44,088 nucleotides of DNA from Deltaproteobacteria bacterium (GCA_026991135.1 JALXCD010000129.1:1-44088), one strand, 5' to 3'; counted from the stretch's first letter, positions 13,013-44,088 are shown. Notes: generated from the sequence alone by a model not told the origin. Numbers and translations: made by a program.

Positions 13013-13564
13013 AAATCTTTCAATCCATGGCCGATTGGGCAATATCACTTCCTTTAAATATATTTTAGCCCGAGGGCTTAACCTTTTTAAGCCCCACATA
13101 GCCCTTCGCCTCACCTCTTTTTCCGCTTCTCTTTCCATGTAAAAGATGAGATTTGTATTAAAAAAAGAAAGGGAATCTGCATCCTTTAGGATGTCGGCTT
13201 CTGGTGTTCCACCAAATTCATGTAGTCTTACAAGTTCAATAACCTTTTTAAGTGTGCTGCCATTTATGCCTGCCTTTTTTAAAAGGCAGCCAAGAAGCCT
13301 TGCACTATTTTCACTATGCGCCCTTTTAAAAAGATCATAATCTGGGAAATCCTCCCTTTTTATTCTTATCTCTAGTGGGTAAGCCCTTTCAATATCATGT
13401 CCCAGTGCGGCAATCTGAAGGGCCAGATCGGCCTCTGGATATAACCTTAGAAGAATATTCAGGGTGTCTTCCCCGTGAATTGGATCTTCTGGAATCTTAG
13501 AATACTTGAGAATTCGCTTTATCTTTTCAAATACCTGGCCCTTTAAGCAGTTCTCAACTGCCAT
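13001..13564 (-). CDS. HD-domain hydrolase in inositol-phosphate operon
   Basis: H...HD...D pattern: DPIHGEDT, IAALGHDIERAYP, ILKDADSLSFF. Start overlaps the upstream gene by 22 nt. Confidence 0.75.
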   Translation of the reverse strand: MAVENCLKGQVFEKIKRILKYSKIPEDPIHGEDTLNILLRLYPEADLALQIAALGHDIERAYPLEIRIKREDFPDYDLFKRAHSENSARLLGCLLKKAGINGSTLKKVIELVRLHEFGGTPEADILKDADSLSFFNTNLIFYMEREAEKEVRRRAMWGLKRLSPRAKIYLKEVILPNRPWIERFLIP

Positions 13565-14883
13565 ATCCTTCTAATATTTTCCGTATGCATGATACCGGCA
13601 AGCATGATGAGAAGCTCTACTGGCCTATAAAAAATTCCACTTAAAAAAACCAAAAATATCCTAACATCCCTTCCAAGACGAATCCTTTTGCGTCTTTTTT
13701 GCCTTCTCATCCATCCATCGTATTTATCCGCTGTATAGCTATTAATAAAAGAACCAATAAGGGCAAAGATTCCCAAAAGCCAGCCAGTATTCCCAAGCAT
13801 CTTGTAGTTTGCCACATGCCAGGTTACGGCAGCAATCAAAAAGGCATCGGCATATCTATCTAACACTGCATCAAGCCAGGCTCCATAATCTGATTGAAGC
13901 CACTTAAGACGGGCTATCTCGCCGTCACATCCATCGATAATACTTGCAATTTGCGCCATTATTCCTCCCATAGCAAACCAAAGATAGGACTCCCTTGCCA
14001 GGAAAAAGGATGCAACAACTGCAAGAAAAAAGCTAATAAATGTAATTTGATTTGGAGTAACAGGGGTATTTACTAAAAGGCTTGTAAGCCTTATAGAAAT
14101 TGGCCTGTTTAAAAGCCTTGATATTGGCCCGTCTCTGCCTTTACTCCTTAAAAGCACAAAAAGCATCTTTTCAGCCCTCTTAAAGGCCCTTTTATCGTCA
14201 AGATCTGCCCAAAATCCCCTTTTGGTTTCAACGGAACGAATAAGCCCCTTTTTACAAAGTCTTGCAACCAAATTACTAAGGGTCAAAGGGACAGCTTTTT
14301 TTAGGTCTTCTTCCTCAAAATTTTCAAAAACATCATATGAACAAACAAAAAGACCTGTATCATATCCGTTAAAACCTGTTATTTCCTTTCCAATGGCCTT
14401 TATGTTTCCATTTTTTACTATAACTTTTGTAACATCATCTCTATCAACCATGGAATTTTTAAGACGTTTGTCAACCAAAAGACACATGCCACCCTTGGGA
14501 GGACTGACAAAAAGCATCCTTTCCATAAGGTCCTTTGAAAAAACATGGTCGCACATGGAAAGAATAAAATCCCCTTTAAGTTTTGCCCTTTTTATTGAAA
14601 GAAAAGAGCTTCCATTTCCCAACTCCCATTCTTCATTCCTGATGTAGCCGATATCTATTCCACCCAATTTTCCATTTAGACCATCGAGGAAACCTTCCAC
14701 TTCATCCGCCTTATATCCAGTAACCACCAATACTTTCTTGATACCGCAGGCCGCAAAACCCCTTATGGCCCTTTCAATTAAAGGCATTCCCAAAAAGGGC
14801 ACAAGGGGCTTGGGACGCCCCCTGTGATTCAGTCTGCTACCTCTGCCTGCTGCCAGGATAACTGCTTGTTTTATCTTGGCCAT
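13543..14883 (-). CDS. Bifunctional inositol-1-phosphate cytidylyltransferase / CDP-inositol:inositol-phosphate transferase (IPCT/DIPPS-like)
   Basis: N-terminal nucleotidyltransferase (AVILAAGRGSRLNHRGRPKPLVPFLGMPL), C-terminal CDP-alcohol phosphatidyltransferase motif DGCDGEIARLKWLQSDYGAWLDAVLDRYAD. Likely start 14883 after AGGAAAGA (track start 14910). Confidence 0.82.
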   Translation of the reverse strand: MAKIKQAVILAAGRGSRLNHRGRPKPLVPFLGMPLIERAIRGFAACGIKKVLVVTGYKADEVEGFLDGLNGKLGGIDIGYIRNEEWELGNGSSFLSIKRAKLKGDFILSMCDHVFSKDLMERMLFVSPPKGGMCLLVDKRLKNSMVDRDDVTKVIVKNGNIKAIGKEITGFNGYDTGLFVCSYDVFENFEEEDLKKAVPLTLSNLVARLCKKGLIRSVETKRGFWADLDDKRAFKRAEKMLFVLLRSKGRDGPISRLLNRPISIRLTSLLVNTPVTPNQITFISFFLAVVASFFLARESYLWFAMGGIMAQIASIIDGCDGEIARLKWLQSDYGAWLDAVLDRYADAFLIAAVTWHVANYKMLGNTGWLLGIFALIGSFINSYTADKYDGWMRRQKRRKRIRLGRDVRIFLVFLSGIFYRPVELLIMLAGIMHTENIRRIWQLRTA

Positions 14884-14899
14884 TGGTCTTTCCTGAAAG

Positions 14900-16045
14900 T
14901 TAGGCAGCAATGACGTCTTTACCGTTGGTCACCTCTTCTTCTCTGGAGTATATCTTGCCCTTTATAAAATCCTCTGTCATACGCCACGCCACATCATCTG
15001 GATATTGTCTAGGAGGATGCTTCATAAAAAAAGCACTTGGCCCCTCCACAACTCCAGACTCTCCTCTATCAAGGGCAACCTTACAACACCTTATGGCATC
15101 AATAGCAACTCCAGCAGAATTTGGTGAGTCTTCAACAGACAATCTAAGTTCAAGATTCATTGGAACATCGCCAAAAAGTTTTCCTTCCATTCTGATAAAG
15201 GCAATTTTATTGTCCTTTTGCCACGGTACATAGTCGCTTGGTCCAATATGTATATTTTCCCAGTCCATTCTTTCTGGAAGGACAGACTGAACTGCCTCTG
15301 TCTTGGACTCCTTCTTGGACTTCAGTCTTGAGCGGTTAAGCATATTCAAAAAGTCAGTGTTTCCACCAGTGTTTAACTGATAGGTGCGTTCAACCTTTAC
15401 TCCACGTTTTTTGAATAAATCTGCAATGGTCCTATGGGTAATTGTTGCGCCAAGCTGTGCCTTGATGTCATCGCCAACTATTGGGATTCCCCTCTGCCTG
15501 AATCTGGCCTCCCAAGTAGGGTCAGATGCTATAAAAACGGGCATACAGTTTACAAAACCAACACCTGCCTTTAAGGCACATTCGGCCCAAAAACGTACTG
15601 CCTTTTCAGAACCTACAGGCAAATAATTGACCAATATTTCAGTACCCGTTTTCCTTAAATGCTCAACTATCTCCTCCATTGTCATTTCCTTCTCATCAGA
15701 CACTACAAAAGTATGGCTTTCAGGATAATCCTTCATATGGTCAGATACTCCATCAAGAACAGGACCCATTTTGACGGTTACTCCCATCTTTGGGATGTCC
15801 TTACAAAAGATGGTTGTGCAATTTGGCTTAGCAAAAATGGCCTCGCTCACATCTTTACCAACTTTCCTTTTGTCAATATCGAAGGCAGAAACTACCTGTA
15901 AATCATGGGGTGCATAACCACCAATATCCCAATGCATAAGGCCAATTGCCTTATCTTTCATGGAAGGATTGTAGTAATGAATCCCCTGAACAAGGGAACT
16001 TGCGCAATTTCCTACGCCTACGATACCAATTCTTACCTTCTTCAC
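14900..16045 (-). CDS. myo-inositol-1-phosphate (inositol-3-phosphate) synthase
   Basis: RIGIVGVGNCASSLVQGIHYY, FVNCMPVFIASDPTW, VGDDIKAQLGATITHRTIADLF, LNTGGNTDFLNML motifs; GGAGG RBS upstream. Confidence 0.93.
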   Translation of the reverse strand: MKKVRIGIVGVGNCASSLVQGIHYYNPSMKDKAIGLMHWDIGGYAPHDLQVVSAFDIDKRKVGKDVSEAIFAKPNCTTIFCKDIPKMGVTVKMGPVLDGVSDHMKDYPESHTFVVSDEKEMTMEEIVEHLRKTGTEILVNYLPVGSEKAVRFWAECALKAGVGFVNCMPVFIASDPTWEARFRQRGIPIVGDDIKAQLGATITHRTIADLFKKRGVKVERTYQLNTGGNTDFLNMLNRSRLKSKKESKTEAVQSVLPERMDWENIHIGPSDYVPWQKDNKIAFIRMEGKLFGDVPMNLELRLSVEDSPNSAGVAIDAIRCCKVALDRGESGVVEGPSAFFMKHPPRQYPDDVAWRMTEDFIKGKIYSREEEVTNGKDVIAA

Positions 16046-31727: not shown

Positions 31728-32087
31728 AAATTCTCCCCACTATTAACTATGGTCAAAAAACCAAAGAAAAATCTAAAGATGAGGGCTACTTTACTGCCCG
31801 TCTTGTCATCTGTCAATGAAGGGATTGGGGCTAAAAAACCTTTTTCTGCTAAACCTTTCAAAAATTCCAGGCCATATAACTAACGACCGTCATGCCTTGT
31901 CTTTAAATATCTACCTAACCCGCCTGATAATTTACAGCCACTTAATTTTTGAAGAAAATTTAAACTGTACAGACAGATGTTGTCCATTGACTTGTTTAAT
32001 ATGGAAAAGTCCACTACTCTCAATAACAGGAGCTTTTGCAGGTTGAATATCCAATTTTTTAGGGCCCTTTCAAAAATGGAGGAGACC

Positions 32088-33512
32088 ATGAGTTCTTTTT
32101 TTCGTTTTACCATCAAACAAAAGATCCTGATATTCAACATGATGATTTTGTGCTTTTTCATCCTGTTATTTGGTTTTTTTTACCTGGAAATAATATCAGT
32201 TGAAAAACATCTTGAGACCATAGAACACTTCAACAAGATATTGCTGGATGCCTTGGAAATCAGGCGTTATGAAAAAGACATTCTTCTTAATATAGGTGAC
32301 GGCAATTTAGATAAACTCATGGATTATCTCCATCAGCTTAAAAAAGACATTAATTCTAGGCAGGATGATATAATTCGACTTACCAGTAAAGATGAATACA
32401 TTGATTTTTTAAATTTACTATCGAGGTATGAATCCTTTTTTAAGTATAAAAAATTTAAGAAAATAAATCCTACACTTGTAAGAAAATATGGTAAGCAACT
32501 TATTGATTATTGTAATAAAATACGAAAAAAGATTAGAACAAAAATACACGGGGAATTAAAGAATATTCTCTGGATCTGTGCTCTTATTCCTACTGTACTT
32601 GGAATAATCATGGCAGTAGCAATTCAGTTTCAGACCAAACTGGTCATTAAAAGGCTAAAACTCCTTGAAAAAGCAACAAAGGACCTTCTGGAAGATAAGT
32701 TTGTTCCTATTGAAGATGATGCCAGGATACAGGATGAGGTTTCTGATCTTATTAAGGCCTTCAACAAAATGGCCCGCGAACTAAATCATCAATATGAAGA
32801 GATGTTACAGGCAAAAAAGATGGCTGCCATTGGGACATTTTCTTCAGGGATTGCCCATGAGATAAACAACCCCCTGAACAACATTTCTCTATCAGCTGAC
32901 ATGTTATATGAAGAATATGACAACCTTTCCCCTGAAGAAGCCAAGGAGATCATAAAAGACATTCTTGAGCAGACAGAAAGGGCCAGCAAGATTGTCAGGA
33001 ATCTGCTTGATTTTTCAAGGGAAAAGGAACCGTCCATCAGGGAACTGACCCCCAGGGAAATAATTGAATCCACTGCAAAATTACTGGAAAATGAATTTAA
33101 GGTGAAAAAAATTTACTTTGGCTCCTGTGTACCCATTGATTTGCCCCACGTCCTGGGTGATCTCAATCAATTGCAGCAGGTCTTTTTAAACCTGTTTTTA
33201 AATTCCATACACGCCATGGACGAAGGCGGGATTATCCATGTAGATGCCAAAGAGGAACCCAAAGGATATGTGCGCATAGATGTTGCAGATTCCGGTAAGG
33301 GGATACCTGAATCTGAACTGGAAAAGATCTTTGACCCCTTCTATACCACAAAGGCAGTGGGCGAAGGCACAGGATTGGGGCTATCAATTGTTTATGGAAT
33401 TGTAAAAAAGCACGGTGGCCATATCGAAGTAAAGAGCAAGCTTGGGGAAGGAACGATTTTTTCTATCTTTTTACCTGTATATAAGGGTGAAAAAAAGGGA
33501 GAAAAGGCATGA
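32088..33512 (+). CDS. Membrane sensor histidine kinase (NtrB/ZraS-like, HAMP)
   Basis: Two TMs, HAMP region, GIAHEINNPLNNISLSADML H-box, GKGIPESELEKIFDPFYTTKAVGEGTGLGLS. Likely start ATG 32088 after GGAGGA. Confidence 0.92.
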   Translation: MSSFFRFTIKQKILIFNMMILCFFILLFGFFYLEIISVEKHLETIEHFNKILLDALEIRRYEKDILLNIGDGNLDKLMDYLHQLKKDINSRQDDIIRLTSKDEYIDFLNLLSRYESFFKYKKFKKINPTLVRKYGKQLIDYCNKIRKKIRTKIHGELKNILWICALIPTVLGIIMAVAIQFQTKLVIKRLKLLEKATKDLLEDKFVPIEDDARIQDEVSDLIKAFNKMARELNHQYEEMLQAKKMAAIGTFSSGIAHEINNPLNNISLSADMLYEEYDNLSPEEAKEIIKDILEQTERASKIVRNLLDFSREKEPSIRELTPREIIESTAKLLENEFKVKKIYFGSCVPIDLPHVLGDLNQLQQVFLNLFLNSIHAMDEGGIIHVDAKEEPKGYVRIDVADSGKGIPESELEKIFDPFYTTKAVGEGTGLGLSIVYGIVKKHGGHIEVKSKLGEGTIFSIFLPVYKGEKKGEKA

Positions 33513-34855
33513 GATTGGCTGTCATCGATGATGAGCAAACTGCTCGTCAAATGATGAAACGATTTTTAGAAAAAGAGGGGTTTCAAGTTGAAACATTTTC
33601 TCTGGCATCCACTTTTTTTAAAAGATTGAAGGAGACTGGTTTTGAAATAGTCTTTATTGATCTCAAGCTTCCTGATATGGATGGCCTTGAAGTTTTAAAG
33701 AATGTAAAACACCTTAGCCCAGATACTGAAGCCATTATAATCACAGGCTATGCCAGCATAGACACAGCAGTGGAAGCCACCAAAATGGGGGCCTTTCACT
33801 ATCTTTCCAAACCTTTGAAACGATATGACATAGTATTAATGGCAAATCGGGCACGGGAAAGGGTACGCCTTAAAAAGGAAAACAAGACACTTAGAATGGC
33901 CAATACGGGTGGGGAATTGATAGAAGGCTTTGTTGGCGCCGGCCCTGCCATGCAGGAAATTTTTTCACTGATAAAAAAAGTGGCCCTGGTTAATTGTAAT
34001 GTTCTTCTGCAGGCTGAGACCGGTACTGGAAAACAGATGGTGGCCAAGGCAATTCATCGCCTGAGTCCCAGACGGGGTATGCCTTTTGTATATTTCAACT
34101 GTGCAAGCTTCACAGAAGAGCTTATTAGCAGTGAGCTTTTTGGTTATGAAAAGGGTGCCTTTACAGGAGCAACCACTTCAAAAAAAGGGCTCTTTGAAAC
34201 CGCCAACGGAGGCACTGTGTTTCTTGATGAAATAGGGGAGATGCCCATGTCAATGCAGGTAAAACTCCTGCATGTGTTACAGGAAAGACAAATCCTGCGT
34301 GTAGGTGGCACCAAACCCATAGATTTAGATGTCCGAATTATTGCAGCAACAAATAGAGATTTGAAATCAGCAATTAAAAATGGTTCTTTCCGTGAAGACC
34401 TCTATTACAGGTTGAATGTGGTTAATATTCAACTTCCTAGACTTGCCGAAAGAAAAGAAGATATTCCGCTCTTGGTCACCTACTTCATTAAAAAATATTC
34501 ATCAAGATTTAAAAAGAAGGTTAAAAACATCTCTCCAGACGCCCTTAACATCTTGATGAAATATGATTTTCCAGGAAATGTCAGGGAGCTTGAAAACATC
34601 ATCCAAAGGGCAGTTGCCCTGACTGAAGAACTTTTTATTGAAAAAAAACACCTGCCACCAGAACTTCTTGAAATTGAAAATGAAGGTCTTGTGGATGACG
34701 ATTCATTGCTGTTGCCTCTAGAAGAGGTCGAAAAACTCCATATTTTAAAAGTCCTTAAAAAAACAGGATTCAACAAAAAGAAGGCCAGTAAAATTCTAAA
34801 TATCCCCAGGACCACACTCTGGCGTAGAATGAAAAAATTTGGAATCGACCATTAA
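33509..34855 (+). CDS. Sigma54-dependent NtrC-family response regulator
   Basis: Receiver, AAA+ with GAFTGA (YEKGAFTGATTSKKGLFETANGGTVFLDEIGEMPMSMQ) and C-terminal Fis-type HTH. 4-nt overlap with the kinase. Confidence 0.96.
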   Translation: MRLAVIDDEQTARQMMKRFLEKEGFQVETFSLASTFFKRLKETGFEIVFIDLKLPDMDGLEVLKNVKHLSPDTEAIIITGYASIDTAVEATKMGAFHYLSKPLKRYDIVLMANRARERVRLKKENKTLRMANTGGELIEGFVGAGPAMQEIFSLIKKVALVNCNVLLQAETGTGKQMVAKAIHRLSPRRGMPFVYFNCASFTEELISSELFGYEKGAFTGATTSKKGLFETANGGTVFLDEIGEMPMSMQVKLLHVLQERQILRVGGTKPIDLDVRIIAATNRDLKSAIKNGSFREDLYYRLNVVNIQLPRLAERKEDIPLLVTYFIKKYSSRFKKKVKNISPDALNILMKYDFPGNVRELENIIQRAVALTEELFIEKKHLPPELLEIENEGLVDDDSLLLPLEEVEKLHILKVLKKTGFNKKKASKILNIPRTTLWRRMKKFGIDH

Positions 34856-34885
34856 TGTTTCAATCTTGAACATAGCATAATGTTC
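34856..34885. promoter_or_regulatory. Candidate enhancer-binding site(s): TGTTTCAATCTTGAACA and overlapping GAACAT-N6-ATGTTC
   Basis: Dyad symmetry about 180-225 bp upstream of the sigma54 -24/-12 element, directly after the NtrC-type gene. Confidence 0.4.
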
Positions 34886-34947
34886 TTATCTGTTTTTGAT
34901 TTACATTTTTTTATTTATTTCAGCCTATAAACAATCTTTGTATCATT

Positions 34948-34962
34948 TTTCACTTTGAAACA
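34948..34962. promoter_or_regulatory. Candidate second enhancer-binding site TTTCACTTTGAAACA
   Basis: TTTCA-N3-TGAAA dyad, resembling TTTCAATCTTGAACA at 34858-34872. Confidence 0.4.
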
Positions 34963-35064: not shown

Positions 35065-35081
35065 TTGGCATTTCTATTGCA
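35065..35081 (+). promoter_or_regulatory. Sigma54 (-24/-12) promoter TTGGCATTTCTATTGCA
   Basis: GG (35067-35068) and GC (35079-35080) separated by 10 nt; matches TTGGCA-N6-TTGCA. Lies about 100 bp upstream of the TSUP gene start. Confidence 0.8.
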
Positions 35082-35182
35082 CAAGCCCCAGTAGCCTAAA
35101 GTATTTCTTGTTGCCCCAAATGAATACGTGGCGGCTCTAATTTGAGGCGAAAAGACAAATTTAACAGGAGGTATATATTACA

Positions 35183-36109
35183 ATGTTTCACATGTATCTT
35201 CCCATAGCCGGGAATAGCGTAAACATTTTACTCATTTTTGGTCTAGGTGGTTTCGTAGGGTTGCTCTCAGGAATTTTTGGAGTTGGTGGTGGATTTTTAA
35301 TGACTCCCCTTTTAATCATGTTTGGAATTCCGCCAACTGTAGCAGCAGCTTCTGATTCAAATCAGATTGTTGGTGCATCTACTTCAGGAACCCTGGCCCA
35401 CTGGCGCCTTGGAAATGTGGATTTCAAAATGGGCATCCTTCTTCTAATTGGAGGCATTATTGGAGGGACATTTGGTGTTCAAATCATAAAGATCCTGCGT
35501 GCCATGGGTAATGCAGATTTCTTAATCAAAATAACCTATGTCATCATGCTAGGCGGCGTTGGAAGTTATATGTTCGTAGATAGCTTGAAAGGACTAAGAG
35601 GAAGCTCAGAAGCCACCTCCAAAAAAACTGGTGGCAAAGAGTCAACCTATGCAAAGATGTTAAAAAGCCTGCCGTTTCAAACCAGATTTGAAAAATCAGG
35701 CATTGAGATATCGCTGCTTCTTCCATTGATTTTCGGTGCATTTGTGGGCATTCTTGCCGCCATCATGGGTGTTGGCGGTGGATTTATCATGGTGCCCGTC
35801 ATGGTTTATTTGTTGAGAATGCCCATGCATGTAGTGGTAGGAACCAGCTTGTTTCAGATACTTTTCACCTGTGTTGATGTTACCATTATGCAGGCATATG
35901 CCAACCACACAGTGGATTTTGTTTTGGCCCTCTTACTCCTTCTTGGCTCCACAATAGGGGCACAGATAGGAACAAGCATTAATAAACGCCTTAAAGGTGA
36001 CCAGATAAAGATCTTGTTGGCTAGCCTTGTGCTTCTGGTCTGTGTCAAGATGCTCTATGGATTGCTAGTTCCCCCAGAGATTATGGTTGCACTGAAAGGA
36101 GGACACTAA
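35183..36109 (+). CDS. TauE/SafE (TSUP) family membrane permease
   Basis: GLGGFVGLLSGIFGVGGGFLMTPLLIMFGIPPTVAAASDSNQIV and second repeat FGAFVGILAAIMGVGGGFIMVPVMVYLLRMPMHVVVGTSLFQI; AGGAGG RBS. Confidence 0.93.
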   Translation: MFHMYLPIAGNSVNILLIFGLGGFVGLLSGIFGVGGGFLMTPLLIMFGIPPTVAAASDSNQIVGASTSGTLAHWRLGNVDFKMGILLLIGGIIGGTFGVQIIKILRAMGNADFLIKITYVIMLGGVGSYMFVDSLKGLRGSSEATSKKTGGKESTYAKMLKSLPFQTRFEKSGIEISLLLPLIFGAFVGILAAIMGVGGGFIMVPVMVYLLRMPMHVVVGTSLFQILFTCVDVTIMQAYANHTVDFVLALLLLLGSTIGAQIGTSINKRLKGDQIKILLASLVLLVCVKMLYGLLVPPEIMVALKGGH

Positions 36110-36111
36110 AA

Positions 36112-36900
36112 ATGAAAGTATCAAGCAAATGTATTAAGAAGCACTTTGTCTTCTTAGTATTTCTTTCCCTAAGCGTTTTTTTAATAAGTAACTGGGCTTT
36201 CGCATCTCAAGAAAACCTGAAATTAGAGTTGAATCCAAGTCATATAAATATTGGTACATTTTATAATGGCACTAAAGTCATAGCAAAGGGAAAGATACCA
36301 GCCGGCACCGAGGTAGTATTAAGAATTAGCGGTCATTACACTGAACTTCATCTAAAAAAGAAAGGAAAGATAGCAGGGCTTCTGTGGATGAATATCGGCG
36401 ATGTGACAGTAGGAAATGTGCCCGAGGTTTTCATGGTGGTTTGTTCTCAAAATATGAAGGACAGGATAGACGACCCAGAGTTAAACCTTGGTTATAAATA
36501 TCTGGAAAAGATGATGACCATAGAGCCAGAGGGTGAAGACAAAGGTTTTATCTTTAAAGAATTTGTAAAATTGCAGGAAAAATCCGGTACCTATGGAATT
36601 TTCAGTGGCAATGTGAAATATACAGGTGAAAGTGACGGCCTCAAAACATTTGAGGCAACAATTCCTGTTCCGCCAAAAATGAAACAGGGAGAATATAAGG
36701 TAGAGGCATTTGCAGTAAGGGGCAAAGAAATAATTAAATCCTCGGCCCAGGAGCTAAATTTGAAACAGGTTGGATTCCCGGCCCTTGTATCAAAACTTGC
36801 CTTTGGCTATTCTCTAATATACGGTATTGGTGCTGTAATTATAGCAATCTTTGCCGGTCTCCTGATGGGACTACTCTTTAAAGGGGGAGGTTCCCATTAA
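36112..36900 (+). CDS. TIGR02186-like exported/membrane-anchored protein
   Basis: Signal peptide, ELNPSHINIGTFYNGTKVIAKGKIPAGTEVVLRISG, C-terminal TM; directly follows the TSUP gene. Confidence 0.7.
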   Translation: MKVSSKCIKKHFVFLVFLSLSVFLISNWAFASQENLKLELNPSHINIGTFYNGTKVIAKGKIPAGTEVVLRISGHYTELHLKKKGKIAGLLWMNIGDVTVGNVPEVFMVVCSQNMKDRIDDPELNLGYKYLEKMMTIEPEGEDKGFIFKEFVKLQEKSGTYGIFSGNVKYTGESDGLKTFEATIPVPPKMKQGEYKVEAFAVRGKEIIKSSAQELNLKQVGFPALVSKLAFGYSLIYGIGAVIIAIFAGLLMGLLFKGGGSH

Positions 36901-36925
36901 TGCCTAGATCAAATCGGTACAATAA

Positions 36926-39514
36926 ATGGTGAATCTCAAACATATATTTAAAAAGATACTGGGAAAGGGCGGCACCGATGAAGGCCGCCCTTTTTCTTAT
37001 TTATTCCAGGTTTTCCAGCAGATTTTGACGTTGAACAACAAGATCCTGGATAAGATAGCAGAAGCCAATGAGAAGCTTGGAGGTGAATATGTCTTTGACA
37101 TAAGGTTTATTGAACAGTTTGTGGAAAGCATATCAAAGGATGTCCAACAGTTGATCTTTTCAATGAATGAAATGGTGCCTGGGCGATATGAAGGCCTTTT
37201 TGAGGCATACAAGGCAATAGAGCTCGATATCCAGGCTATAATGGCTGGCCAATATATTGGAGCAAAAACCCATGTATTGCATTTCGATGATGTTGAAAAG
37301 GGAGATGAAGATTCAATTGGTCCTAAAAATGCCTCGTTATGTCTTCTAAAAAAAGAACTCTCTTTAAATATCCCGGAAGGGTTTGCCATAACCTTTTATG
37401 CATATAAGGATTTTTTGTCTCAGAATGGACTTGAAGAAAAGATTCATGAGATAATGAATGAATGGGAAAAAGGACGGTATAGTACTAAAGAAGCAAGTCG
37501 AATGATTCAATCTGAAATACTTTCATCACCCATCCCTTCAAATTTGAAACACTCCATAAGCGACGCCTTGGCAATTCTCAGAAAAAAGATAGGTAAACAT
37601 TCACTTTTGGCTGTGCGCAGCAGTGCATGGGGAGAAGACAGTGAGCATTCTTTTGCAGGCCTCTATGACAGTGTCGTGGGCGTGAATGATAATGGCATAT
37701 ATGATGCATATAAGAAGGTAATAGCAAGTACCTTTCATTCAAAAGTCATGGAATATAGACGACAGATTGGGTTCAAAGAGGATGAAATACTCATGGCCGT
37801 GGGATGCGAACAGTTAATAGAACCTGAAGTTAGCGGAATAATTTATACGCTCAATCCTAATGAACCCAGTTGTGAGAACATGATCATCAACTCCACATGG
37901 GGATTAGGGGGGATACTGGTATCTGGTAAGACCACTGGAGATATGTTTTTCATCAACAGAGAAAGCAGGGAAATTGTGGGACTTGAAATAGCCTGGAAAG
38001 AGAAAAAAAAGGTGATAAAAAGGGATGGATCTTTCGAATATGTGGAGGTTGAAGACAACCGCAAAGAGATCCCATCCCTTTCCAAAGAACAAATTAAAAG
38101 GCTTGCCAAAACCGCAGTAACAATTGAACGATTCTTTAAAAAGCCCCAGGATATAGAATTTGCAATTGACAAGTCTGGTGAAATCATAATCTTACAGTCC
38201 AGGCCCCTTAAGATCAGGGAAAAGATTAAAACAAGCCAGCTGGATATCACTCACCTTGATAAAAGATATCAAATTCTCATAAAAAACTCAGGGCACACAG
38301 CCCAAGAAGGTGTCGGCATTGGCCCAGTTTATATATGCGCTGGCGATCACGTTTTAGATGACTTTCCAACTGGTGCCATAGCAGTTGCAAAATACGCTTC
38401 TCCAAGGCTTGCAAGGATTGTCCCAAGGGCTTCTGGCATAATTACTGAGATAGGTTCAGTTGCCGGTCACCTGGCCACCATATGCAGGGAATACGGCCTT
38501 CCTGCCGTATTCAATGTAAAAAATGCAATTGAAATCTTGGAGGATCAGGGCCAGATTACCCTGGATGCCACAGAAAAAACCGTTTATAAGGGCAAGGTAA
38601 AAGAGTTATTTTATTATACCTTGTCACAGGAGCCCATAGAAGAGTCCTATGAATACCGTCTTCTTAGACGGATCTTAAGAAAGATCGAACCACTTAACCT
38701 GGTGGATCCAAATTCGCCAAAGTTCAGGCCCGAAACGTGTAAAACATTTCATGATATAACCCGTTTTGTCCACGAAAAGGCGGTAGAAGCCATTATTGAT
38801 CTTCATTATGAGGGCATAGATCACTCCCAATCCATATCAGCAAGGATGAAATGGGATATTCCATTAGACCTTGTAGTCATAGACATTGGCGGTGGGCTTG
38901 ACGAAGAATCATTGAAAGTTGGAGTGGCACGCCCAGAAGATGTTCTTTCAATACCCATGCAAGGACTTATGCAAGGTTTGAGATGTCCAGGAGCATGGGA
39001 CAATGATCCTATGTCAGTGGATGTTTCAAGTTTTATGTCAAGTTTAACCCGAACTTTTTCTGCTGAACATGCTGACCCTAAAATGGTTGGCCAGAATTTA
39101 GCTGTATTAAGCAAACACTATGTCAATTTGAGTCTTAGACTTGGTTACCATTTTACAATGGTAGATAGTTATGTCTCACAAAATGTGATTGAAAACTATA
39201 TTTATTTTCGTTTTTTTGGCGGGGTCACTGATCTTAAACGAAGGTCCAGAAGGGCTAAATTGATTAGTGATATCTTAAGCTTTTATGATTTCAGGGTAGA
39301 GACCAGAGGAGATTTAGTAGTTGCTCGGCTAAAACGATTTGGGCAGGAAGACACACTTAGACGTCTTTATCTGGTTGGTATTTTAATAGGATTTACCCGT
39401 CAGCTTGATGTATTAATGGTTTCTGACGAGCACGTAAGCCAATTTGCAAAAAAAATTATCGAATTGATGGAGGGGGAAAATGGACAAAGAGAAGATAAAA
39501 ATTTTGATTCTTGA
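36926..39514 (+). CDS. PEP/pyruvate-binding-domain protein A: N-terminal helical domain, ATP-grasp, phospho-His swivel, novel C-terminal domain
   Basis: AVRSSAWGEDSEHSFAGLYDSV, DIEFAIDKSGEIIILQSRPL, ASGIITEIGSVAGHLATICREYGLPAVFNV. No PEP-utilizers TIM-barrel motifs seen in the C-terminus. Confidence 0.85.
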   Translation: MVNLKHIFKKILGKGGTDEGRPFSYLFQVFQQILTLNNKILDKIAEANEKLGGEYVFDIRFIEQFVESISKDVQQLIFSMNEMVPGRYEGLFEAYKAIELDIQAIMAGQYIGAKTHVLHFDDVEKGDEDSIGPKNASLCLLKKELSLNIPEGFAITFYAYKDFLSQNGLEEKIHEIMNEWEKGRYSTKEASRMIQSEILSSPIPSNLKHSISDALAILRKKIGKHSLLAVRSSAWGEDSEHSFAGLYDSVVGVNDNGIYDAYKKVIASTFHSKVMEYRRQIGFKEDEILMAVGCEQLIEPEVSGIIYTLNPNEPSCENMIINSTWGLGGILVSGKTTGDMFFINRESREIVGLEIAWKEKKKVIKRDGSFEYVEVEDNRKEIPSLSKEQIKRLAKTAVTIERFFKKPQDIEFAIDKSGEIIILQSRPLKIREKIKTSQLDITHLDKRYQILIKNSGHTAQEGVGIGPVYICAGDHVLDDFPTGAIAVAKYASPRLARIVPRASGIITEIGSVAGHLATICREYGLPAVFNVKNAIEILEDQGQITLDATEKTVYKGKVKELFYYTLSQEPIEESYEYRLLRRILRKIEPLNLVDPNSPKFRPETCKTFHDITRFVHEKAVEAIIDLHYEGIDHSQSISARMKWDIPLDLVVIDIGGGLDEESLKVGVARPEDVLSIPMQGLMQGLRCPGAWDNDPMSVDVSSFMSSLTRTFSAEHADPKMVGQNLAVLSKHYVNLSLRLGYHFTMVDSYVSQNVIENYIYFRFFGGVTDLKRRSRRAKLISDILSFYDFRVETRGDLVVARLKRFGQEDTLRRLYLVGILIGFTRQLDVLMVSDEHVSQFAKKIIELMEGENGQREDKNFDS

Positions 39515-39875
39515 TGACGAACCCATAGTTACCAAACGTCTAAAACCTGCCCTAGAAAAAAAGGGATATGAGGTAGAAACCTTTACCCAGAGTAGCTCTG
39601 CCCTAAAAAGAATTCAGGAAGAGAGATTTGATATAGTAATTACAGATCTTAAGATGGAAGGGCTTAGTGGAATGGAATTTCTTGAAAAGGTCAAGGAAAA
39701 GTGGCCACAAACTGAGGTCATAGTGATTACAGGTTTTGCTACCATGGAAACTGCAAAAGAATCCTTTAAAAAGGGCGTCTTTGACTTTCTGGCAAAACCA
39801 TTCAAGCTAGGAGAAATTATAGATATTGTGGCCAAGGCCGTTGATCATTTGAAGGGTAAAGAAGCTTCTAAATAA
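39480..39875 (+). CDS. Stand-alone response-regulator receiver domain
   Basis: ILILDDEPIVTKRLKPALEKKGYEVETF...DIVITDLKMEGLSGMEFL...VIVITGFATMETAKES...FLAKPF; 35-nt overlap with upstream CDS. Confidence 0.94.
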   Translation: MDKEKIKILILDDEPIVTKRLKPALEKKGYEVETFTQSSSALKRIQEERFDIVITDLKMEGLSGMEFLEKVKEKWPQTEVIVITGFATMETAKESFKKGVFDFLAKPFKLGEIIDIVAKAVDHLKGKEASK

Positions 39876-39898
39876 TTTCTTTTGATGGGAGACGACTA

Positions 39899-40726
39899 AT
39901 GGCAAGAGCGTTACTCTATTTAGACGAAAACTTGGCCTCAAGCATTGCCCTTAGATATATAGATTACTTAAGCACTATGATACAACTGACTCCATTCATA
40001 ATTCATGTTGTCGTACCTGAAGAGAAGGAACAGGCAGGCACAGGATGGGTACGCCGCACCTGGGAAAGTGGTATGATTGAATCGGGAAAGGCCACCATTT
40101 CAAGGCTTCTTAAGACAGAAAAAGTTAAATGTGCATTTGGCGGCACCCCGAAGATAAAGATAGGCAACAAAGATGATGAGATACTGGAAGAGCTAAGGAT
40201 CACTTCATACGATTTCTTTGCTGAAGGACACCTACCTACTTCTCGAAGTCAGGACTTTCACGACTTATTAGATTCAGAGCTCTATATAAAAGCCCCGTGT
40301 TCAATAATGTGCATTAAAAATCTGTCGGTGTCAAAGACAGTGGGTATCCTCCTTGGAAATGGTGTCGAGCCGGAAACAGTGGTGTCTGAATTGAAAAAAA
40401 TATGGGACAACTCGGTAATGGATATAGATTTGATTTATTACACGTTTAAAGATTCAGACAATCTAGAATTTCTTGAAAGATCACATGCAAGCAATTTACT
40501 TAATGAAACTGAAGAGTTACTTAAAAAAGGAGAGCTTCCTTGCTCAAACATCCATGTTATCGCTGGAACACCGGAAGCGGCTGGTGATTTTCTTATAAAT
40601 TATGCATTCATAGCCTCTAGTTTCCCACCTAAAAAGTCACTGGTAGCTGAAGTCCTAGCCTATACACCAAATTCAGTATTTTTATGCAAAGGTAAAAAGA
40701 GTAGAAAAAAGGGGACGGAGGCTTAA
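39899..40726 (+). CDS. Divergent universal-stress-protein-like protein
   Basis: MARALLYLDENLASSIALRYIDYL..., ITSYDFFAEGHLPTSRSQDFHDLLDSELYIKAPCSIMCIKNL has USP-like organisation; adjacent to another USP-like gene. Confidence 0.55.
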   Translation: MARALLYLDENLASSIALRYIDYLSTMIQLTPFIIHVVVPEEKEQAGTGWVRRTWESGMIESGKATISRLLKTEKVKCAFGGTPKIKIGNKDDEILEELRITSYDFFAEGHLPTSRSQDFHDLLDSELYIKAPCSIMCIKNLSVSKTVGILLGNGVEPETVVSELKKIWDNSVMDIDLIYYTFKDSDNLEFLERSHASNLLNETEELLKKGELPCSNIHVIAGTPEAAGDFLINYAFIASSFPPKKSLVAEVLAYTPNSVFLCKGKKSRKKGTEA

Positions 40727-40727
40727 T

Positions 40728-41573
40728 ATGCGTATATTAGGAGCACTAGACAGCAATATATATAGCTATAGAGCACTTGAAGACCTGGCAAATCTTTGTG
40801 CGAACACCTGGGCAGATGTAACGCTATTGATGCTGGCAGAAGAAAAACCAAAGCAAATAAAAAATGAAGACGTCCTTATTTCACTGGCCCAAAAATTCGT
40901 GGAAAAGACCGGTGGTGATCAAGGGCCGTATCACCTGCCGGATAATGTAAATTTTAGATTACAAAGTGATGGTTCCAAGACCTTTGTCTCACCTGGAAAA
41001 AAAGAGCTTATTTTAAGGATTCGAACAGGAGATTATGCCAAAGAAATACTGGAAGAGGCCCGGGAAATTGATAGCGATCTCATTGTCTTGGGATGCTCAA
41101 AAGGAATGGAGTGTGAGTGGGAAGGTATTCTGGGTCTTCCAAAGCAGATTGCTAGAGACGCAACATGTTCTGTTTTGGTGATTAAAGATACCACAAGGCC
41201 CAGTCAAATTATCTCTTTTTTAGATCAAAGCAATGTCAGTCAGGAATCGTTAGAACTCATAAATCAAATGGTGACAATCCACCATGCAGGGCTAAAAATT
41301 GTAGGACTAATGGGAGAAAAAGGCATAGTAGAAAAGGAAGATGTTCAGCGTAAGATGCTTGATATTATAAGTTATTATAATGAAAAGGGCATACATGCAT
41401 GGATTACATTTATCGAAAAGTCCTCAATAGAAGATTATGTTGCCAATGCCACACACGAAGGGATGGTAGCCCTTTGGATTGGCAAAAAATCATTTTTCTC
41501 AAGGATATTTTCAAGGGATCTTTTGGGAAAACTTATTGAATATGCAAGATCATCAATTTTAATACTTAGATAG
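40728..41573 (+). CDS. Universal-stress-protein-like protein (two USP-like halves)
   Basis: MRILGALDSNIYSYRALEDLANLC...SDLIVLGCSKGMECEWEGILGLPKQIARDATCSVLVIKD. Confidence 0.7.
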   Translation: MRILGALDSNIYSYRALEDLANLCANTWADVTLLMLAEEKPKQIKNEDVLISLAQKFVEKTGGDQGPYHLPDNVNFRLQSDGSKTFVSPGKKELILRIRTGDYAKEILEEAREIDSDLIVLGCSKGMECEWEGILGLPKQIARDATCSVLVIKDTTRPSQIISFLDQSNVSQESLELINQMVTIHHAGLKIVGLMGEKGIVEKEDVQRKMLDIISYYNEKGIHAWITFIEKSSIEDYVANATHEGMVALWIGKKSFFSRIFSRDLLGKLIEYARSSILILR

Positions 41574-41577
41574 TAAA

Positions 41578-44088
41578 ATGCTTAAATACTCCACTCATAT
41601 TGATGGCCCTGGCCGGATATTCAGACATTTTAGAAAGATATTAGACCTAAACAATCGTATCCTCGAAGAAATATCAGAAGCAGAACGGATCTTAAGTGGA
41701 AGCTATCTTTTTGACAGTGCCTATCTAAATTCATTTGTTACCAAAATCACAGAAGATGCACGAGAGGTTATCTATAATCTAAATGTCCTTTCTGAAGGTA
41801 AGTTTTTAATCCTTTACGACCGGCTAGATGAGATCAAACAAACGCTTGATGACATAATAGCTGGAGGTGTTGGGCCCTATGGCGAGGCCATAACCATTGA
41901 TTACCATCAAGTAAAAAGGGATTTTGACGAGATTGTAGGGGCTAAGAATGCAAATCTTGGAGAACTCTTAAACAGTTTCCAGGTCAAGATTCCTGATGGT
42001 TTTGCCGTAACCGTTAAGGCCTACAGGTTGTTCCTAAATTCAAATGATATCATAGACAAGGTTAAAACAGTCTATAAAAAATACCATGACAAAAAAGAGG
42101 ACCTTAAAAAAGAGTTAAAGACCATATTTAATGAAGCAAAGGTTCCAGAAGAGGTCAAGGACTCCATAAAAGGGGCCATAAAAAGGCTATATAAACGGAT
42201 AGGTAAAAAGGTGCCACTTGTGGTTAGAAGTAGTGCTGTGGGTGAAGATGCCGAACGGAGCTTTGCAGGCCAGTTCACATCTATTTTGAATGTATCCCCA
42301 GAAGATGTCTTTTCGGCATACAAACAGGTAATCATGGGGCGTTTTTTGCCAGAAGGCATGGATTACATAGGAGATGATGTGGACTTTGACCAAGTACCCA
42401 TGTCAGTGGGGATACAGGAGATGATTCATGCGACTGTTTCAGGCGTTGCATATTCAGTGGACCCAGTGGGTCGCTTTAAGGAAGGTTTGGTAATTTCTGC
42501 TGTTGAAGGTCTAGGAGAAGTTCTGGTGTCTGGTGAATCGACAGGAGAACAATATGTCCTTGACAGAAATTATCCATTTGACCCCATCTCATCCAAAATT
42601 GTACCAAAGGATATCTCAGCCACTCTTCCGCATGGGGATAGCCCTTTAGATATTACTGAAAGCGGATTAAAAAGAGGCTCTTCTTTGTTGAATATGTCAG
42701 ATCTTAAGGCCATAGCAGAGATTTCCATGTTATGCGAAAAGGCCTTTGGAACACCGAGAGATATAGAATGGGCCTTAGATGAAAATGGCGACTTAGTTAT
42801 ACTTCAAAATAGACAATTATCTGTAAGCCCAGGCCAATCCCAGGAGTCATTGAAAAATATAGATGAACTCCTTAGCCGCTTTCCTGTCCTTATGGAGGGT
42901 ATCGGGCAAACAGCCCAATCAGGGGTTGCCTCTGGCCGGGTGGTACACGTAAATCCAGATGATGAACCAGATCGGCTTCCAATAGGTGCAATAGCTGTGG
43001 CTCATTACGCCCACCCTGGTTTAAGCCGAATACTCAGACGGGCTGGAGCCATTATCACAGATATTGGAAGCGCTACAGGGCATCTGGCAACAATTGCTAG
43101 AGAATACAGGGTGCCTGCTATTTTTGGCACTGAAATGGCCACGAGCATCCTTAAGGAAGGAATGGAAGTCACTGTAGATGCCGATGATCGAAAGGTTTAC
43201 AAAGGAATAATAAAAGAGCTAGTGGAAATAGAATCAAGGCGTCAGTGGGAGTATCTGGAAGAGCCTGAATTCAAGACACTTAGGCGGATCTTAAGCCATA
43301 TTGCGCCCCTTTATCTCACAGACCCATCATCTGCACAATTTAGCCCTGAAAATTGTAAAACCATCCATGATATCATTCACTTCAGCCACGAAAAGGCAGT
43401 GGAAGCCTTGATCCATCAATTTTCGTCTAAAAAAGGCATCTCTAAAGAAAAAATCTATGAACTGGATATCTCCATTCCAATAAGGATAAAGGTTGTGGAT
43501 ATTGGAGGAGGAGTTAGCCCGTCGGATAGCGATGTGAACAAGGTCACTACAGATAGTATCTTGAGCCGGCCTTTTTCGGCCCTTCTTCGTGGGCTTTTGA
43601 GAAAAGATGCCTGGGATAGGGAACCAGTTCCTTTTGGACTGGGCGATCTTTTTTCAAGTATGATGCGCCCTATGAGTACCCTTACAAATCCTCCAGAATA
43701 TGCAGGCGACAATCTAGCCATTATAGCCGAAGATTACATGAACCTCAGTCTTCTTCTTGGTTACCACTTTAATGTAATTGACTCTTATGTTTCTGGTGAC
43801 CCGGATAACAATCACATCTATTTCCGATTTGCAGGGGGATTTGCCCAAGAATCCAAGAGAAAGAAAAGAGCAGAATTGATTAGGTGGATACTTGAGGCAT
43901 TGGGATTTAAGGCTGATATTAATGGAGACTTAGTCATTGGGAAATTAAAGGGGGTTGATGACGCCCATCTCCTGTCGCTTTTGGAGCAGGTGGGAGCACT
44001 TATTGCGTTTACCAGGCAGTTGGATGTAAGAATGGCCGATGAAGAGTCTGTTGAAAGATTCTTTAAACGCTTTTTTGCCATGTACAGT
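41578..44088 (+). CDS. PEP/pyruvate-binding-domain protein B, paralogue of protein A; truncated by right window edge
   Basis: Manual translation MLKYSTHIDGPGRIFRHFRKILDLNNRILEEISEAERIL...DEIVGAKNANLGELL...PLVVRSSAVGEDAERSFAGQFTSI...AIITDIGSATGHLATIAREYRVPAIFG...; open to 44088 and therefore absent from the ORF track. Confidence 0.88.
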   Translation, partial: MLKYSTHIDGPGRIFRHFRKILDLNNRILEEISEAERILSGSYLFDSAYLNSFVTKITEDAREVIYNLNVLSEGKFLILYDRLDEIKQTLDDIIAGGVGPYGEAITIDYHQVKRDFDEIVGAKNANLGELLNSFQVKIPDGFAVTVKAYRLFLNSNDIIDKVKTVYKKYHDKKEDLKKELKTIFNEAKVPEEVKDSIKGAIKRLYKRIGKKVPLVVRSSAVGEDAERSFAGQFTSILNVSPEDVFSAYKQVIMGRFLPEGMDYIGDDVDFDQVPMSVGIQEMIHATVSGVAYSVDPVGRFKEGLVISAVEGLGEVLVSGESTGEQYVLDRNYPFDPISSKIVPKDISATLPHGDSPLDITESGLKRGSSLLNMSDLKAIAEISMLCEKAFGTPRDIEWALDENGDLVILQNRQLSVSPGQSQESLKNIDELLSRFPVLMEGIGQTAQSGVASGRVVHVNPDDEPDRLPIGAIAVAHYAHPGLSRILRRAGAIITDIGSATGHLATIAREYRVPAIFGTEMATSILKEGMEVTVDADDRKVYKGIIKELVEIESRRQWEYLEEPEFKTLRRILSHIAPLYLTDPSSAQFSPENCKTIHDIIHFSHEKAVEALIHQFSSKKGISKEKIYELDISIPIRIKVVDIGGGVSPSDSDVNKVTTDSILSRPFSALLRGLLRKDAWDREPVPFGLGDLFSSMMRPMSTLTNPPEYAGDNLAIIAEDYMNLSLLLGYHFNVIDSYVSGDPDNNHIYFRFAGGFAQESKRKKRAELIRWILEALGFKADINGDLVIGKLKGVDDAHLLSLLEQVGALIAFTRQLDVRMADEESVERFFKRFFAMYS

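Follow-up and report, generated by a model that had tools for sequence, protein, structure and literature searches.

The DNA window analysed here, 44,088 nt of a Deltaproteobacteria bacterium, makes up contig C129 (metagenome-type assembly; 164 contigs, 2.32 Mb in all) and contains a sigma54-controlled gene set that is confirmed as a real and conserved system, shared by many sulfate reducers and sulfur disproportionators. Its core consists of a TSUP (TauE/SafE) permease, a TIGR02186-like membrane-anchored protein, a PEP-synthase-like protein (PEP-like protein A), and a stand-alone receiver (REC), which occur in constant order; a second PEP-like protein, B, is optional. We read the operon, with about even confidence, as a two-component- and sigma54-controlled sulfur-oxyanion permease system that depends on a PEP-synthase-derived, ATP-dependent phosphotransferase. 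No description of it as a composite system was found in the open-licence literature, nor was any experiment on the TSUP-TIGR02186-A-REC operon; the nitrate cluster of Desulfovibrio is its known relative.

All nine genes lie on the plus strand, at the positions given by the first-pass annotation. The sensor histidine kinase (HK; 31977-33512, HisKA and HATPase_c, with an internal ATG that may be the true start) is followed by an NtrC-type response regulator (33509-34855), which by domain match has the features of a sigma54 activator: a REC domain, a Sigma54_activat AAA+ domain with GAFTGA, and a Fis HTH. After a 327-nt gap, which holds the sigma54 site and in which no terminator-like site was found, the seven-gene set begins with the TSUP permease (35183-36109; PF01925, 174 bits, cut-off 32.6). 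It continues with the TIGR02186-like protein (36112-36900; PF09608, 141 bits, cut-off 24.5), A (36926-39514), REC (39480-39875; PF00072, 107 bits), USP-like protein 1 (USP1, 39899-40726), USP-like protein 2 (USP2, 40728-41573; PF00582, 36.7 bits), and B (41578-44088). The 3' end of B is cut by the contig end at 44088, which leaves an open frame of 837 aa. The junctions from TSUP through B are +2, +25, -35 (the overlap of A and REC), +23, +1, and +4 nt, and because they span only -35 to +25 nt the organisation is operon-like. The expected domains were recovered, including PPDK_N and PEP-utilizers in A and B, Response_reg in REC, and Usp in USP2, and with them the picture of two ATP-grasp/phospho-His proteins flanking a stand-alone receiver and two USP-like proteins. 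By profile, USP2 also matches USP structures. For USP1 the label 'USP-like' is fair but weak: Pfam gave no match and the protein is distant to USP2, yet the profiles of the two families align lengthwise (hhalign probability 80%, E 1.4e-5). An anti-phage defence system was considered as well and rejected, PADLOC giving only weak generic receiver matches.

The relatives of A were drawn from 40 relatives and 396 genomes of the phylum. Neighbourhoods were fetched for 60 loci and then for 80 named loci, and the counts take only loci with enough flank. TSUP lies upstream of A in 72/72 informative loci, TSUP and TIGR02186 together precede A in 70 of the 72, and REC follows A in 69/75 loci. At least one USP-like gene is present downstream in 50/57 loci, with both in 34, whereas a second PEP-like gene is found downstream in only 8/57. 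Many loci have an additional USP-like gene ahead of TSUP. An NtrC-type gene is nearby in 38 and an HK within reach in 37 of the 40 full loci. By name, the carriers belong to Desulfobulbaceae, Desulfocapsa, Desulfobacteraceae, Desulfovibrio relatives, Desulfofervidaceae, Syntrophobacteraceae, and one Nitrospirae bin. Adjacency to TIGR02186 needs 12 changes on the tree of the PEP family (192 members) as compared with ~63 in shuffles, and the A type is therefore inherited together with the operon. B falls in a PEP-B group of this tree. The co-occurrence of TSUP, TIGR02186, REC, and USP genes with an A-type protein, which the first-pass annotation proposed to look for across Desulfobacterota, is borne out by the locus counts, and homologues of A are not mostly found without these neighbours. 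B and other paralogues are also found elsewhere, most often still close to TSUP, HK, or REC genes. Among 19 further loci chosen from the paralogues, most contain TSUP alongside HK or REC genes.

The sigma54 -24/-12 promoter TGGCATTTCTATTGCA is located at 35066-35081 and has one mismatch. The window taken alone holds only a few more motif matches than chance predicts (32 versus 22.6 at two mismatches), and the site is accepted because it is conserved upstream of orthologous operons. Sites with at most one mismatch precede 31/72 of them (0.27 expected, maximum of 3 in 300 shuffles) and perfect sites precede 12/72 (0.017 expected), which supports the earlier view of one sigma54-controlled unit of seven genes behind an HK/NtrC-type pair. 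The sigma70-like matches in the 327-nt gap are at chance level. When palindromes upstream of TSUP were enumerated with no prior motif, TTTCA-N3-TGAAA was found in 53/76 regions against 0.4 expected, and the full palindrome GTTTCA-N3-TGAAAC, with up to one mismatch, in 56/75. Its density is 1.53 per kb upstream of TSUP and 0.018 per kb elsewhere in the same loci. Two copies spaced by ~80 nt are frequent, and the usual distance to the -24 box downstream is 80-260 nt. The palindrome is kept where the HK/NtrC pair sits downstream of the operon (loci L156 and L159). It is a putative binding site of the NtrC-type protein. The window has two candidate enhancer copies of this de novo motif: a distal one, GTTTCAATCTTGAAC, at 34857-34871 with two mismatches, and a proximal one, TTTTCACTTTGAAAC, at 34947-34961 with one mismatch, the -24 box lying 119 nt downstream. 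Another palindrome, GAACAT-N6-ATGTTC (34868-34885), was rejected as the activator site, being present in 1/76 regions with 0.9 expected.

A and B consist of an N-terminal domain (NTD), an ATP-grasp domain (PPDK_N, 262 and 224 bits), a mobile phospho-His domain with the catalytic His (PF00391), and a C-terminal domain (CTD) at about residues 560-850 of A. This architecture is near universal in the family, and no fusion to REC, HK, or AAA+ was found among the 216 family ORFs examined, so that fusions offer no proof of a relay. The catalytic His (H515 in A) is kept in 228/233 distinct members, and the CTD residues H609, D610, H616, H742, R776, D796, and D828 are invariant in all 233; the three His and three Asp among them may form a metal site or a catalytic one. 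The ATP-grasp and mobile phospho-His domains are arranged as in PEP synthase (pyruvate, water dikinase). In contrast to that enzyme, A and B have an extra N-terminal domain and no match to the PEP/pyruvate barrel (PEP-utilizers_C), either in the whole proteins or, with E up to 10, in the CTD by itself, and their scores of 298 and 267 bits against NCBIfam PEP_synth (TIGR01418) fall below its cut-off of 739.75. Judged from sequence, they are not PEP synthases, and the PEP/pyruvate domain is replaced by a C-terminal domain of a new kind. In profile comparison, the matches to solved structures end where the CTD starts, and the CTD itself has no sequence match. Its predicted structure, of moderate confidence (pLDDT 74, pTM 0.68), gave no hit in the PDB with E below 0.001. 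ATP-grasp is also combined with a swivelling phospho-His domain in rifampin phosphotransferase and further PEP-synthase-like kinases, where it serves an acceptor other than pyruvate. Rifampin phosphotransferase has the domain order ATP-grasp, RIF-binding, His, whereas A and B have a different acceptor domain, placed after the His domain, and reach only 196 and 163 bits in the rifampin phosphotransferase model (cut-off 999). Phenylphosphate synthase carries ATP-binding and phospho-His functions on separate subunits, unlike A and B, which have both in one chain.

The association with TSUP extends to the whole CTD family. In 19 near-complete genomes, 36/75 CTD-family genes are within 8 kb of a TSUP gene (2.6 expected), and none of 5000 circular shifts gave a value as high, the maximum being 14; within 12 kb the count is 48/75 versus 3.9 expected. 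This proximity, together with the genetics of the nitrate cluster (PMC4001038), supports the proposed link to anion traffic. TSUP (TauE/SafE) permeases, the family of the operon's permease, are abundant in sulfate reducers, where their function was judged not predictable, and a term search of the text of that study gave no mention of PEP-like, response-regulator, or USP partners (PMC5840216). The TIGR02186-like protein is, by its profile matches, a distant member of TIGR02186 / Alph_Pro_TM, which passes the Pfam cut-off but misses that of NCBIfam TIGR02186 (64.6 against 255). Its predicted structure (pLDDT 93) comprises an N-terminal helix, a beta-sandwich (Ig-like) body, and a C-terminal membrane helix, with weak matches to Ig-like folds. 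A direct literature search for TIGR02186 returned no paper.

The tie to sulfur respirers is strong. PF09608 is present in 75/396 genomes of the phylum, and 72-73 of these 75 have DsrA compared with 195/396 overall (Fisher p ~1e-22, uncorrected for relatedness). The window's own genome gave no match to DsrA, though genus mates have one. Dissulfurimicrobium hydrothermale, a member of the same order, is an obligate sulfur disproportionator (PMC8780430), and it carries the operon with three PEP-like genes (locus L106). Within the window's genus, the operon is adjoined by a second module containing TSUP, USP, and two CitMHS/DASS-type permeases. These permeases share 70-72% identity with neighbours of Desulfolithobacter proteins whose detection was probably confined to thiosulfate disproportionation; this tie is circumstantial. 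GF1_10730, 10760, and 10800 of Desulfolithobacter dissulfuricans are reported to be produced only during thiosulfate disproportionation (PMC9751629). They were rejected as direct evidence on the operon: the tags, placed by counting from the Dct genes, fit a different permease/USP/HK/REC cluster at ~1.21 Mb (L275), and the operon orthologue of this species is at ~3.55 Mb (L267). An enhancer common to that cluster and the operon is not claimed, as the site overlaps other repeats and has a mismatch.

The functional evidence comes from the nitrate cluster. Insertions in DVU0251 (TSUP), DVU0250, DVU0247 (REC), and DVU0246 (PEP-like) allow D. vulgaris to grow in 100 mM nitrate, and parallel nitrate-resistance results were obtained in D. 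alaskensis (Korte 2014, PMC4001038). Korte et al. proposed a leaky thiosulfate transporter and cite, as unpublished, a mild sickness of the G20 nitrate-cluster mutants on thiosulfate (PMC4001038). The PEP-like gene lies downstream of the TSUP gene, and the mutant of the last gene is not nitrate-resistant (PMC4001038), so polarity on TSUP does not explain the PEP-like mutants. Since the PEP-like mutant behaves as the TSUP mutant and the last-gene mutant does not, the phosphotransferase would be necessary for the permease. D. vulgaris Hildenborough (DvH) is absent from the searched genomes, and relatives of that genus were used instead. One close relative, probably of the same genus (its cytochrome c3 is 84% identical to an approximate query used only to find the genus), has the cluster order DUF169, TSUP, 221 aa protein, sCache HK, REC, and PEP-like. 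Its PEP-like protein is 27% identical to A end to end, CTD included (E 4e-93). Judged by gene order and domains in this relative, not by DvH sequences, the nitrate cluster is a paralogue of the operon, built from the same modules. The cluster (DVU0251-DVU0245 / Dde_0597-0605) shares with the operon TSUP, a stand-alone REC, an HK, and a PEP-like protein that joins ATP-grasp and phospho-His domains to this type of CTD, although its TSUP and PEP-like proteins are only distantly alike to those of the operon. It alone has a DUF169 protein, an sCache/PhnD-type sensor, and a DSP phosphatase, while TIGR02186, the NtrC-type regulator, and the USP-like genes are found only in the operon. Its full gene set does not occur in the window, where DUF169, the phosphatase, and the SBP/sCache-HK sensor are absent.

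In the proposed mechanism, the HK would sense the anion or redox state and activate the NtrC-type regulator, which would bind the conserved GTTTCA-N3-TGAAAC enhancers and turn on the conserved sigma54 promoter. TSUP would form the membrane pathway for a small sulfur oxyanion, most likely thiosulfate or sulfite, and the TIGR02186 protein, given its constant pairing with TSUP, may be an anchored periplasmic partner. With its conserved ATP-grasp and His domains, A is expected to move a phosphoryl group from ATP through His515 to an acceptor at the CTD, and by comparison with the Desulfovibrio relative this transfer may keep the permease working or open. The stand-alone REC, mutants of which copy the TSUP mutant in Desulfovibrio, would tune the phosphotransfer step at the protein level, and the USP-like proteins would be accessory, perhaps nucleotide-binding. 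For the operon itself, we infer transport direction, substrate, phosphoryl acceptor, and the roles of REC and the USP-like proteins; a protein, a small molecule, and REC are indistinguishable as acceptors of A from sequence. The proposal carries a caveat because the nitrate cluster is paralogous, has no TIGR02186, and uses a different sensor. Of the earlier idea of a phosphotransfer module for anion or sulfur traffic, the anion and sulfur links stand, and the phosphotransfer may serve sensing, gating, or substrate activation.

A different use of the phosphoryl group is conceivable. TSUP may import a sulfur compound or sulfonate that A and B phosphorylate with ATP at the CTD for metabolism, in the manner of rifampin phosphotransferase or phenylphosphate synthase. 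The CTD stands where PEP synthase has its substrate domain and its many invariant polar residues (H, D, R) resemble an active site, the ATP-grasp and His domains are intact, and one PEP/TSUP/REC locus of Desulfolithobacter lies beside a molybdopterin oxidoreductase and a 4Fe-4S gene. However, a downstream enzyme should be unnecessary for nitrate entry, yet mutation of the PEP-like gene in the nitrate cluster also gives resistance (PMC4001038). Permease, REC, HK, and USP genes recur constantly in the neighbourhood, but no dedicated catabolic gene does; we consider this reading unlikely. It is rather improbable that A instead acts in signalling, as a kinase that hands the phosphoryl group of its His straight to the stand-alone REC while the CTD senses a metabolite. 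The close placement of REC, which adjoins A in most loci and overlaps it in the window, speaks for such a relay, as do the many PEP-like paralogues beside REC or HK genes, but an HK able to feed REC is usually present, no REC- or HK-fused form was found among the 216 family ORFs, and we know of no PEP-synthase-type His domain that phosphorylates a REC.

Export would place the operon in stress relief, with TSUP removing toxic sulfite or another anion and the USP-like and PEP-like proteins forming a stress response. The TauE/SafE family name, the frequency of USP-like genes, and the strong tie to DsrA genomes agree with it. Nevertheless, the term 'exporter' in the first-pass annotation is only a family label, and loss of the related cluster raises anion resistance, which is easier read as import (PMC4001038); export thus appears quite improbable. 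That A and B are ordinary gluconeogenic PEP synthases, placed near transport genes by accident, is scarcely credible. Automated gene names say so, and several such genes are listed as phosphoenolpyruvate synthase in the Dissulfurimicrobium genome paper (PMC8780430), but the domain content of A and B, with no barrel and low PEP_synth scores, contradicts it, and the genome has a far better match to PPDK_N on another contig (C65, 836 aa frame).

Returning to the permease system, we tentatively extend it to a wider principle, doubtful as yet, in which TSUP permeases under two-component control are gated or energised by phosphotransferases that derive from PEP synthase and carry a new acceptor domain, similar to a PTS but ATP-driven and acting on inorganic sulfur anions. 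Such gating, if true, would explain the nitrate sensitivity of sulfate reducers and would feed thiosulfate or sulfite into respiration or disproportionation. The passage of these two anions through the membranes of sulfate reducers and disproportionators is poorly known, and a subset of their TSUP permeases can now be assigned conserved partners, a promoter code, and a phosphotransfer step that lends itself to testing. The operon is also tied to the unexplained nitrate-resistance locus of Desulfovibrio, which is relevant to nitrate dosing of oil fields. Moreover, the results suggest that many genes annotated as 'PEP synthase' in sulfate reducers and disproportionators are something else. Beyond the region from HK to B, the remainder of the window has ordinary gene content.

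A third PEP-like gene (ATP-grasp and phospho-His domains with a distinct C-terminal domain, CTD) is truncated at the end of contig C93 of the window genome (G000:C93:15585-17609, L113), and a TSUP-USP-two-permease-USP module comes after it. Shared synteny in the genus mates (L109-L111) suggests that C93, in reversed orientation, continues the window locus. The second TSUP module has a perfect GTTTCA-N3-TGAAAC palindrome in its upstream region, at 12297 in L109 and 4901 in L111, and neither copy has a same-strand sigma54 site beside it. Another perfect copy lies within the NtrC-type gene (window 33580-33594), as either a chance occurrence or an internal site.

A second layout recurs in L220, L222, L226, L229, L245, L260, L263, and L265, in which the PEP-CTD gene adjoins a long NtrC-like protein (~840-970 aa), and a TSUP of ~350 aa is divergent from this side. 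Dissulfurimicrobium hydrothermale (G023) carries three PEP-CTD genes in ~9 kb. Several genes of this organism are listed as phosphoenolpyruvate synthase (PMC8780430); the three probably belong to that list, and the label is likely a misannotation.

In Desulfolithobacter dissulfuricans GF1, L272 (~1.14 Mb) comprises a PEP-CTD gene, DSP phosphatase, NtrC-type, HK, REC, GAF-HK, and a TSUP-like frame, and directly precedes genes for a molybdopterin oxidoreductase and a 4Fe-4S protein, which are probably phsAB-2 (PMC9751629). In L275 (~1.21 Mb), USP, HK, and REC genes accompany a pair of CitMHS/DASS-type permeases, and the upstream repeat, GCAAC...GTTGC, is different-looking. This cluster probably corresponds to GF1_10730-10800; the USP and REC of that set were detected solely during thiosulfate disproportionation (PMC9751629).

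DsrA gave no convincing match across the whole window genome (best E 2.7e-14) and was present in each of the three genus mates that this search covered; its absence reflects either a missing contig or real loss. At window 13543-16045, the domain content (NTP-transferase + CDP-alcohol phosphotransferase and inositol-1-phosphate synthase) is as would be expected for di-myo-inositol phosphate, a thermophile solute.
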